Positions 6,658-9,282 of a stretch of DNA of 34,416 nucleotides are shown here, one piece after another. The stretch's first letter is position 1. The number at the start of each line of letters is the position of its first letter. The notes below the pieces were generated by a model, which made no database searches, was not told the DNA's origin, and saw nothing but the letters and a program-made list of their open reading frames with translations. A program made the position numbers and the translations under genes. The stretch is from a virus, in the IMG/VR virus record IMGVR_UViG_3300009164_000192, positions 1-34,416 of that record, one strand, 5' to 3'.

Positions 6658-7665
6658 ATGGAAAACCAGACCGGAACGACCGAATCCACCCCCACGGGCG
6701 ATGCGGCGACCGAAGGCAGCGAGGGCCAGGACCTCGTTTCTTCGGGCGCCGGGTCGTCCGAAGGAAGGTCCTCGGGTTTTGACTCGGCGGCTGCGGATGC
6801 CGCGATGAAACCGACTCTTGGTTCCGCCAAGAGTCCAGCCGACGCGGCCAAGCCGGCGGCACCAAAAGTTCCGACCGCTGCCGAAAAACGGCGATACGCG
6901 CTCAAGGTCGATGGACAGGACATCGAGGAGGAGTTGAGCGACGACGAGATTCGCGTGCGGCTTCAAAAGGCCCATGCGGTCGACAAGCGGTTTGCCGAGG
7001 TTGCTAATCAGCGCAAGCAAATCGAGGCGGCGCTGAGCCAACTCAAGAACGATCCGGCCAAGGCGCTGAAAGAGATCGCCGGTCTCGATCTCGACGAGTG
7101 GGCCGAGAAGCGTATTCTGGAGCGATACCAGGAGGCCATGCTTCCCGAGGCCGAGCGCGAAAAGGCCGAGATGCAGAAGAAGCTGGCCGATTATGAACGC
7201 CAGTTCGAGGAGCAGAAGACCGCCGCCGAGAGCGCCAAGCAGCAGGCGTACGAGCAGCAGGTGTTCGAGAAGACCGAGCAGGAATTCATTCAGGCGGTCG
7301 AAACGCTCGGGTACGACAAGGGCTTTTCGCGCACGGTGCTCGTGCCGATGATGGCTGAGATTGCCGAGTCGGCGCTGGACTACGGCGTCGAGCTAACGCC
7401 GTCGCAGATGGCAGCGGAAGCGAACAAGCGGCTGGAGACCATCCACCGTCGTCAGGTGCAGGGACTCAAGGGCGAGCAGCTTCTGAGGTACTTGGGCGAC
7501 GACGTGGTAACCGAGGCCATTCGAGCGAAGCTGGCGGCGACTCGCGGACCTTCGGCCGCGCCCTCGACGCCTCCGCCTCCCGCTCGCAAGCCCGTGACCG
7601 AGGCCCCGCGCAAGCCGATGACGCCGCAGGAGTGGCGGATGAAACACCTGTACGGCATGGAATGA
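6658..7665 (+). CDS. Capsid scaffolding protein
   Basis: The 335-aa protein has a Ser/Gly/Ala-rich disordered N-terminus (1-70), a small folded segment (RRYALKVDGQDIEEELSDDE, about 78-97), a long Lys/Glu/Gln coiled coil (about 100-215) and a Pro-rich C-terminus ending in the basic stretch MTPQEWRMKHLYGME. Scaffolds bind the capsid shell through such basic C-terminal helices and leave after assembly. Its place between portal and major capsid genes is the standard one. Shine-Dalgarno is weak (AGGCAAGG 4-11 nt before ATG). It ends 37 nt before the tRNA-like element and its terminator. Confidence 0.85.
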   Translation: MENQTGTTESTPTGDAATEGSEGQDLVSSGAGSSEGRSSGFDSAAADAAMKPTLGSAKSPADAAKPAAPKVPTAAEKRRYALKVDGQDIEEELSDDEIRVRLQKAHAVDKRFAEVANQRKQIEAALSQLKNDPAKALKEIAGLDLDEWAEKRILERYQEAMLPEAEREKAEMQKKLADYERQFEEQKTAAESAKQQAYEQQVFEKTEQEFIQAVETLGYDKGFSRTVLVPMMAEIAESALDYGVELTPSQMAAEANKRLETIHRRQVQGLKGEQLLRYLGDDVVTEAIRAKLAATRGPSAAPSTPPPPARKPVTEAPRKPMTPQEWRMKHLYGME

Positions 7666-7702
7666 CCATGCCGTCCGGAAAGCTACGGGATGGAATAGGG
7701 TT

Positions 7703-7764
7703 GGCAGTCGAGTAGCTCAGCGGGAGAGCCTCGGGACGCTGGTTCGAGTCCAGCCTCGACTGTC
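7703..7764 (+). ncRNA. tRNA-like element lacking the anticodon arm
   Basis: The 62-nt segment folds as a cloverleaf with one leaf missing. The acceptor stem is GGCAGTCGAG (7703-7712) with CTCGACTGTC (7755-7764), 10 bp with one G-U. Then come TA (7713-7714, standard positions 8-9), a D stem GCTC/GAGC (7715-7718, 7726-7729) with loop AGCGGGA, and a T arm GCTGG-TTCGAGT-CCAGC (7738-7754) with the invariant TTCRA loop. Between D and T arms only CTCGGGAC (8 nt) is present, where an ordinary tRNA has about 22 nt of anticodon arm and variable loop. No CCA is encoded. It cannot decode as drawn; it may be a decayed tRNA, or an RNase P/Z processing signal in the late mRNA. Confidence 0.75.
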
Positions 7765-7769
7765 AAATC

Positions 7770-7813
7770 TAGGGGCCGATACGGACAGTCCGTATCGACC
7801 CCTATTTCTTTTT
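7770..7813 (+). terminator. Strong intrinsic terminator after the tRNA-like element
   Basis: A 16-bp stem with a single mismatch (7770-7785 with 7789-7804), a CAG loop and then TTTCTTTTT (7805-7813). It lies six bases past the tRNA-like element and about 200 nt before the capsid gene, so full-length late transcription must read through it or restart beyond it. Confidence 0.9.
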
Positions 7814-7978
7814 GGCAAGGAAACAAGAAAGGACGAAAGGGATAGGACGCTCACGCCATCTGACCACCTTTCCTCCGGTTCTTGGAGCAGACCGCACACG
7901 GACGCCGCAAGGCTATCCGCGGAAAGCGACAAGGAACTGACCGCACGAACGTAAGCCCAACGTCCGATAACCCCCTCC

Positions 7979-7995
7979 GCTTCGCAAAGCGAAGC
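7979..7995 (+). promoter_or_regulatory. Perfect 7-bp hairpin in the capsid gene leader
   Basis: GCTTCGC-AAA-GCGAAGC forms a perfect stem with a 3-nt loop, ending 18 nt before the capsid ATG and just before the AAGGCAAGG ribosome site. With no U-tract it is not a terminator. It could protect or present the ribosome site of a highly translated mRNA. The rest of 7814-7978 holds no promoter I can defend. Confidence 0.6.
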
Positions 7996-8013
7996 CCCGA
8001 AAGGCAAGGCATC

Positions 8014-9282
8014 ATGTCGAATCAGGCGAATGACGTTTCTACACTCAACGGTCTTTTCAAGACCCAGTACGCTCCGGATCTGAACGATCTCATCCCGCAG
8101 CACGCCATTCTTCAGCAGAAGATCAAGTACGTTCCGGCCGACAAGCAGAACGGTGCCTTCTACGCTGTTCCGTGCGTGCTCCAGAGCAACCAGGGCGTGA
8201 GCTACCTGGGCGAGGGCGGCGGCGTTTCTGACCTGAATGACGCGATCAACGCGATCATGAAGGAGGCTCAGGTCAAGGGCAGCGAGCTGAACATCCGTGG
8301 CCAGCTGAGCTACAAGGCGCTCTCGCAGGCCGCGACGGCTGGTGCTCGCGCGTTCAAGAAGTCCTCCTCGTGGCTCGTTGAGGACATGGCGAACGTGTCG
8401 TTTACCCGCCTTGAGCTGTCGACCATCTACGGCCAGGTCGGTCTTGGCAAGGTCGAGAGCAACACCTCGACGGGTTCGGGCGCGTGCGACATCGTTATCA
8501 CCGAGCCGACGTGGGCGACCGGCATCTGGGTCGTCCTTGAGGGCGCTCAGTTCGACTTCTGGAACTCTGCTGGCAAGCCCTGCACGGCCAAGCTGGTGAA
8601 GGTCAACTCGGACCTCCGCAAGCTGTCGTTCACGACTATCTCGGGCAATGAGACGCTTATCGTCGCTGGCGATGACGTCTACCCGAGGGGTGCGAAGGTG
8701 GGTACCGGAACCGCCGCGTCCAACTACAACGAGATGGCGGGTCTCTTCAAGCAGTACAACCCGGCCACCGTCGAGCTGTTCGGCATCACGCGCACCCCGT
8801 ACACCCTGCTTCAGGGCAACGAGTACGCCAGCGTGGGCGAGATCAGCTCGGCCAAGGTCGTTCAGGGCGCGAGCCTCGCGGTTGACAAGGGTCTGATGAC
8901 GGACGCCGTGTTCCTCTGCGGCACCAAGACCTTCGCGGACCTGAACGCCGAGAACATGGGCCTCCGCATGTTCGACAGCTCGTACTCGCCCGCTAAGGCC
9001 GAGAACGGGGCGCAGGCGCTGACCTACGACCACATCAACGGCAAGATCACGGTCATCTGCCATCCGTTCATCAAGAGCGCCGACGCGCTGCTGATGGACG
9101 CGAACGACGCGCTGTTCGTCGGTTCCAGCAAGCCCACGTTTGAGATTCCGGGCATGCCGGACCGCTTCTTCCGCCTCGTGCAGGACAAGAACGCGGTCGA
9201 GCTCCAGAACTATGCGGATCTCGCGGTGTTCGTCCACAAGCCGGGTCAGGGCGTCATCTACTCGGGCATCACGCACGGGTAG
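8014..9282 (+). CDS. Major capsid protein
   Basis: The 422-aa protein starts MSNQANDVSTLNGLFKTQYA, and its size and content fit an HK97-fold capsid subunit of a podovirus-like phage: an N-terminal helical arm (residues 5-45), glycine-rich GVSYLGEGGGVSD near 65-77, alternating helices and strands, and a C-terminal VQDKNAVELQNYADLAVFVHKPG typical of a P-domain end (last part). ATG 8014 has AAGG twice within 14 nt upstream; an in-frame start at 7882 would translate the leader hairpin and is unlikely. The gene follows the scaffold and is bracketed by terminators at 7770-7813 and 9303-9340, as expected for the most abundant virion protein. Fold assignment is by context, not alignment. Confidence 0.85.
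   Translation: MSNQANDVSTLNGLFKTQYAPDLNDLIPQHAILQQKIKYVPADKQNGAFYAVPCVLQSNQGVSYLGEGGGVSDLNDAINAIMKEAQVKGSELNIRGQLSYKALSQAATAGARAFKKSSSWLVEDMANVSFTRLELSTIYGQVGLGKVESNTSTGSGACDIVITEPTWATGIWVVLEGAQFDFWNSAGKPCTAKLVKVNSDLRKLSFTTISGNETLIVAGDDVYPRGAKVGTGTAASNYNEMAGLFKQYNPATVELFGITRTPYTLLQGNEYASVGEISSAKVVQGASLAVDKGLMTDAVFLCGTKTFADLNAENMGLRMFDSSYSPAKAENGAQALTYDHINGKITVICHPFIKSADALLMDANDALFVGSSKPTFEIPGMPDRFFRLVQDKNAVELQNYADLAVFVHKPGQGVIYSGITHG

Follow-up and report, generated by a model that had tools for sequence, protein, structure and literature searches.

Between the probable scaffold and capsid genes of the phage analysed here lies an RNA fold in which the anticodon arm is missing and the rest of the tRNA core is whole, and this armless tRNA design recurs across phages of very different hosts. 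Members of the class stand at boundaries of RNAs and genes, and behind GOLLD RNAs they share a slot with ordinary tRNAs. We lean, with modest confidence, towards the view that the armless element acts, independently of decoding, as a signal for RNase P/Z processing and would thereby define RNA 3' ends.

The armless element and its locus

Throughout, the window is the whole stretch of 34,416 nucleotides of viral DNA that was analysed, and window coordinates refer to the plus strand. The element occupies positions 7706–7762 and corresponds to tRNA positions 1–73 minus the anticodon arm, as read from the sequence, the Rfam tRNA model (RF00005) and the class model R1 introduced below. RF00005 gives it 43.3 bits against a gathering threshold of 29 (E 5.9e-8 in 551 nt, 8.9e-10 for the whole record), with model positions 1–71 aligned and the anticodon arm skipped, which bears out the preliminary description of a tRNA-like element without an anticodon arm between the scaffold and capsid genes. 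Thermodynamic folding by itself is moderately unusual (z -2.07). The acceptor stem, which had been described as 10 bp long, folds as 12 bp, its 5' strand at 7701–7712 pairing with 7755–7766, and comprises the 7-bp acceptor and a 5-bp extension formed by leader and trailer, with one G.U pair at 7704/7763. U8-A9 (7713–7714), the 4-bp D arm (7715–7729; stem 7715–7718/7726–7729, loop AGCGGGA) and the 5-bp T arm (7738–7754; stem 7738–7742/7750–7754, loop TTCGAGT at 7743–7749) are found at the spacing first reported, both arms by the Rfam tRNA alignment and by direct reading. In the place of the anticodon arm there is a linker, CTCGGGAC (7730–7737), of 8 nt as previously counted, versus 23 nt in a normal tRNA; it parses as position 26 followed by two surplus bases and, as its last 5 nt, the variable loop GGGAC (positions 44–48), whose final C48 makes the Levitt pair with G15. 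The elbow nucleotides are complete (U8, A14, G15, G18, G19, A21, C48, U54, U55, C56 and A58). The element thus has the acceptor stem, D arm and T arm of RF00005 with canonical tertiary-contact nucleotides, and has no anticodon arm with a 7-nt loop; decoding is impossible for an RNA without an anticodon.

ARAGORN called no tRNA at the element and cmscan with its fast filters did not report it, so that routine annotation would overlook it too. The comparison with tRNA and tmRNA covariance models that had been proposed at the outset came out for tRNA: the permuted tmRNA model reached 10 bits against a cut-off of 47 and the tmRNA models matched weakly or not at all, which rejects a tmRNA half or permuted tmRNA. 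The mascRNA-menRNA model (RF01684) found no match at window positions 7500–8050 up to E 10.

The gene upstream (6658–7665) lies between the portal and capsid genes and encodes a probable scaffold protein of 335 aa, which has relatives in six contigs and found no match in PHROG or Pfam. Downstream, the probable major capsid protein (422 aa; 8014–9282) matches SU10_MCP weakly, under the cut-off (E 0.0012), and its relatives are 71–100% identical. The portal protein has a P22-type likeness that also falls below the cut-off, and the phage is probably a podovirus. An intrinsic terminator, recognised by folding as an imperfect 15-bp hairpin (TAGGGGC...GACCCCTA) followed by TTTCTTTTT, occupies 7770–7813; it begins 3 nt downstream of the 12-bp stem, in agreement with the start 6 nt past position 7764 given earlier, and was not listed by a simple terminator scan. 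The capsid gene then has its own leader (7814–8013), conserved in all six relatives, with two hairpins of the form GGACGC-tetraloop-GC(C/T)ATC, for which no Rfam family match was obtained; no sigma-70-like promoter was found between the terminator and the capsid gene. The tetraloops of these leader hairpins vary (UCAC, GCAA, GAAA, UUCG). Upstream of the element, the scaffold stop codon is located in the loop of a 9-bp hairpin, ACGGCATGG-AATGA-CCATGCCGT (7652–7674), which shows a C/G change with pairing retained in L002 and L003 and is absent from L006.

Relatives at this locus comprise six IMG/VR contigs (L001 to L006) with genes for the adjacent capsid and scaffold proteins, L001 being identical over the capsid; two additional scans returned the same six, and a BLASTN comparison of the scaffold-capsid region with cultured phages gave no match. 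In the homologous intergenic regions, whose comparison had also been suggested beforehand, four of the six relatives (L001, L003, L005 and L006) keep the element. In L004 it is absent; in L002 a deletion reaching from D stem to trailer has removed it. The terminator is at the same place in all six; since L002 and L004 have it without the element, the latter is dispensable or replaceable. Pairing of the 12-bp stem is mostly retained in L003, L005 and L006 through compensatory changes with few mismatches. Relatives' copies replace A-U by C-G at 7706/7761, G-C by U.G at 7707/7760, A-U by U.G or G.U at 7711/7756, and G.U by U-A or G-C at 7704/7763, and the T-stem pair 7740/7752 changes from U-A to G-C. 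The mismatches are two at the end of the 7-bp acceptor in L006 and one C.A in L005. The linker of L003 is 13 nt long.

An armless class in unrelated phages

IMG/VR was searched with a DNA pattern that specified D- and T-arm letters and a short linker and left the acceptor stem unspecified; such a pattern is biased towards a single type of tRNA, with the D arm TAGCTYAG. A strict version returned 12 viral stretches and a looser one at least 119, amounting to at least 102 unique elements from unrelated phages with very different hosts. Among the matches listed, the linker measures 8–9 nt in 64 of 102 unique elements, its commonest 8-nt form being CTTGGGTC, and C48 is retained in 69 of 72. The acceptor, on which the search placed no demand, pairs at six or seven of its seven positions in 76 of the 102 listed; shuffling the partners of these same elements leaves on average 4.3, and at most 11, with six or more pairs, and their acceptor 5' strands come in 93 distinct versions. 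In an alignment of 57 members, both sides have changed at all seven acceptor pairs and at three T-stem pairs, the covariation score is 0.767 versus 0.156 after shuffling, and 98.6% of cells are paired; these members were preselected for at least five acceptor pairs, so that the unbiased figure is the 76 of 102 among the matches listed. Further tallies among the matches listed give a discriminator A in 33 of 72 elements, an encoded CCA in 8 of 72, G3:U70 in 7 of 82, and no extended stem in 37 of 72. The low count of G3:U70 rejects an alanine minihelix, and this rarity, together with that of CCA and the lack of a fixed acceptor sequence, points to recognition by shape and not as an amino-acid acceptor.

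R1, a covariance model built from the class elements, describes a paired 7-bp acceptor, D and T arms and a linker of about 6–12 nt with C48 last, all of which the window element has; it scores 69 bits at 7706–7761, its own sequence being part of the training set. Outside that set, the model gives 74 bits to an element of the cultured Polaribacter phage Danklef_1 (record positions 43546–43603), annotated 'tRNA-OTHER, Undet NNN' and encoded a few genes ahead of those for terminase, and 51 bits to elements of Lactococcus P335-type phages, which follow the endolysin gene; Lactococcus carriers include bIL309, in which the element is downstream of endolysin, and TP712; canonical tRNAs, of length 72–73, score up to about 50 bits. 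A common bacterial element is rejected by a survey of 118 Lactobacillales genomes, among which the query's own was the only armless match and the others were tRNAs of 72–73 nt. The armless elements apparently form a large family without a name. Open-licence PMC literature yielded no paper on such a class, and the design is overlooked because a tRNA finder and a fast covariance scan skip the window element; where an annotation exists, in Danklef_1, it is the indeterminate label quoted above.

Sites at RNA ends and late gene junctions

In locus L076, a GOLLD RNA (6773–7161) is followed after 3 nt by an armless element (7165–7223), and locus L214 has the order tRNA-Gln, ROOL RNA, armless element, the latter overlapping the end of the ROOL model by ~10 nt. 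In sister phages, which are GOLLD-bearing phages of Streptococcus, the position behind GOLLD is held by tRNAs: tRNA-Phe starts 8 nt behind it in Javan565, tRNA-Ser 10 nt behind in LYGO9 and a tta tRNA 10 nt behind in Javan636, and Streptococcus phage Javan584 has an odd 113-nt tRNA-model match with a large insert 6 nt behind (L265 2955–3067). Loci L245 and L264 carry a weak, degenerate tRNA-like stretch in the same slot. That the slot takes various tRNAs or an armless element suggests a function for which the tRNA shape matters and the codon does not. GOLLD and ROOL have been found near tRNA islands (PMC12286853), and a pseudo-tRNA lies within mycobacterial GOLLD (PMC6582537). Among the loci tested, GOLLD or ROOL adjoins an armless element in two only, and GOLLD, ROOL or abiF RNAs were rejected as general partners, 50 records of each having given one ROOL, one abiF and no further GOLLD.

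Junctions of late structural genes provide a further setting. In fetched loci, whose gene calls are mechanical, a T7-like cyanophage relative (L066) has the element between its T7-type scaffold and Gp10A-type capsid genes, and two T7-like loci (L037, L100) have it between the Gp10A capsid and tail tube genes. Single-sequence reading with weak model scores suggests degenerate T-arm elements at the scaffold-capsid junction of the cultured T7-like cyanophages Syn5 (L268 2780–2850), S-TIP28 (L272 1895–1975), P60 (L273 1790–1890) and S-CBP2 (L266 2000–2110); those of P60 and S-CBP2 overlap the end of the scaffold gene. Two separate matches were recorded at these junctions: a Glutamine-II riboswitch between the scaffold and capsid genes of cyanophage S-TIP28 (L272 1665–1717; 51.6 bits, cut-off 33), and an abiF RNA immediately upstream of the armless element of L066 (1866–1903; 39.9 bits, cut-off 37). 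The abiF match could be a phage-borne copy of a type III antitoxin RNA, or just a hairpin formed by chance. At other loci the neighbours belong to late-regulator, terminase, portal and capsid families; some members lie near tRNA arrays, and the genome position varies.

The 55 nt upstream of class elements are more structured than intergenic controls from the same contigs (mean z -1.44 vs -0.29, p 1e-5), and very strong hairpins stop 2–5 nt before the element in seven loci (L026, L103, L120, L205, L037, L146 and L244). In L026, L103, L120 and L205, a 14–15-bp hairpin ending in ACCA or ACCAC directly precedes the element; 3' of it, L103, L120 and L205 have ACCA and L026 has ACCC. Locus L073 repeats the order of stop codon, element and terminator seen in the window. 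A terminator right behind the element, noted in the preliminary description, is a usual feature of this phage family, not of the class at large, where it was rejected as a general partner because among the matches listed it is adjacent in 11 of 71, compared with 7.6% of random windows.

A candidate processing mark

RNase P and RNase Z recognise the stacked acceptor and T stems and the elbow, not the anticodon. An RNA derived from a tRNA could therefore keep its acceptor stem, its T arm and the elbow of D loop and T loop for the processing enzymes and drop the part that serves decoding only. Such an element would fold in the late transcript downstream of the scaffold reading frame and be mistaken for a pre-tRNA by host RNase P, and perhaps RNase Z, whose cuts at its ends would leave the RNA upstream with a fixed 3' terminus, in many cases shortly after a protective hairpin, and detach it from the RNA downstream. 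In the window, the cut would fall either at 7706 or where the helix ends, at 7701; alternatively, the fold may serve as an uncut 3' cap. The terminator would close the unit, and the capsid message would follow with its own leader. Known properties of the enzyme agree with this scheme: bacterial RNase P accepts heavily truncated tRNAs, the fidelity of E. coli P RNA is unaffected by two extra acceptor or T-stem pairs, and bacterial substrates include mRNAs, phage regulatory RNAs and OLE RNA (PMC4919922, a review).

The processing signal suggested in the preliminary description is thus partly upheld: the GOLLD slot shared with tRNAs, the ROOL 3' end and the T7-like head-gene junctions argue for it, and we infer the cleavage, its enzyme and a role in handling scaffold versus capsid messages. 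It is the best reading left for the class. For this phage's own family we would rate it lower, since leader and trailer are drawn into the stem and the terminator follows at once, which weakens the step from class to window: base-paired leader and trailer are unlike a normal RNase P substrate, and with the scaffold message already ended by the terminator there is no evident need for a cut. The wider proposal, that tailed phages commonly use a purpose-built tRNA module without an anticodon as a portable mark for RNase P/Z cutting, swappable with tRNAs and forming the 3' ends of GOLLD, ROOL and late structural-gene messages, strikes us as evenly poised.

The same features of this family, a stem of family-specific length mostly kept by compensatory change and a terminator 3 nt downstream, with the matching order in L073, could also mean that stem, compact tRNA fold and terminator together form an uncut 3' end that shields the scaffold mRNA from exonucleases. 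Most class members, among the matches listed, have neither the extension nor an adjacent terminator, so that an uncut end would be a special use, and a plain hairpin would suffice for it; we regard this as distinctly improbable. Somewhat less so, although still unlikely, is a small RNA acting in trans, that is, a released free tRNA mimic serving for instance as a decoy for a tRNA-binding or tRNA-cutting defence protein or for a processing enzyme. The wide carriage of the element by unrelated phages, the conservation of the full elbow, the variable genome position and the proximity of some members to tRNA arrays would suit a free RNA. Tight placement beside the ends of non-coding RNAs and hairpins would be unneeded for it, however; acceptor stem and discriminator vary freely, ordinary tRNAs replace the element behind GOLLD, and an armless RNA would be invisible to anticodon nucleases.

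That the element might be a relic of a lost phage tRNA, as also raised in the preliminary description, draws on its deletion in L002, its absence from L004 and the longer linker of L003. A functionless, decaying sequence would hardly share one architecture across over 70 well-paired elements of unrelated phages, with variable but paired acceptors, a sharp linker peak at 8–9 nt and C48 almost always kept; covariation largely refutes decay and, with recurrence, led us to reject a simple relic, leaving this origin very little probability. Least probable of all is an attachment or recombination site. An attP carried by a phage is often the 3' portion of a tRNA gene, and tRNA fragments at integrated elements have been discussed (PMC9897764). 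Such sites retain the anticodon loop and everything 3' of it, whereas the window element misses exactly the anticodon arm, its 5' acceptor strand and D arm are present and co-vary, and its locus lies between head genes; attP is rejected on anatomy.

Were the processing reading correct, it would account for the 3' ends of GOLLD and ROOL and for their company with tRNAs, add RNase P to the ways in which phages set head-protein levels, and supply small natural RNase P substrates together with a portable tag that might be used for cutting in RNA engineering. The module reading would make the element a phage counterpart to MALAT1/mascRNA and to tRNA punctuation.

Viral tRNA-like structures are known from the 3' ends of plant RNA viruses and from the tRNA-like RNAs of gammaherpesvirus 68, which likewise imitate tRNA for host enzymes but belong to other viruses and differ in architecture and use. 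The tRNA-like domain of tmRNA, an RNase P substrate, shares an acceptor and T arm without anticodon; unlike the window element, tmRNA has no D stem and bears a reading frame. Canonical phage tRNAs, including those beside GOLLD and ROOL, have the elbow, the acceptor and the GOLLD slot in common with the armless element, which differs in lacking the anticodon arm and decoding and in seldom encoding CCA (PMC12286853, PMC6582537). Outside bacteria, RNase P-type enzymes act on tRNA-like t-elements and MALAT1 (PMC4919922). Plant mitochondrial mRNA precursors contain t-elements, which are tRNA-like and processed by PRORP; these t-elements are non-decoding, lie beside reading frames and are proposed to set mRNA ends (PMC4919922); they are organellar, whereas the phage class has a fixed armless design and a presumed cleavage. 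Likewise, mascRNA and menRNA (RF01684), cut by RNase P and RNase Z at the 3' ends of MALAT1 and MEN beta, are tRNA-like ends of long non-coding RNAs, comparable to GOLLD and ROOL, but are eukaryotic and nuclear, and the window has no match to that sequence family; the Syn5 element gives RF01684 a weak, non-significant 23.4 bits. A position at an RNA or gene boundary is shared with both systems, at the scaffold-capsid junction here and at GOLLD and ROOL ends elsewhere.

Bacterial matches with linkers of 10–15 nt were left out of the class, most of them having no acceptor pairing or being assembly gaps. Among them, chromosomal loci of Bacteroidetes (L157, L173, L189 and L206) and Clostridia (L155, L162 and L172) combine a D-arm and a T-arm motif across such a linker with no paired 7-bp acceptor, and represent a different, recurrent tRNA-like motif.
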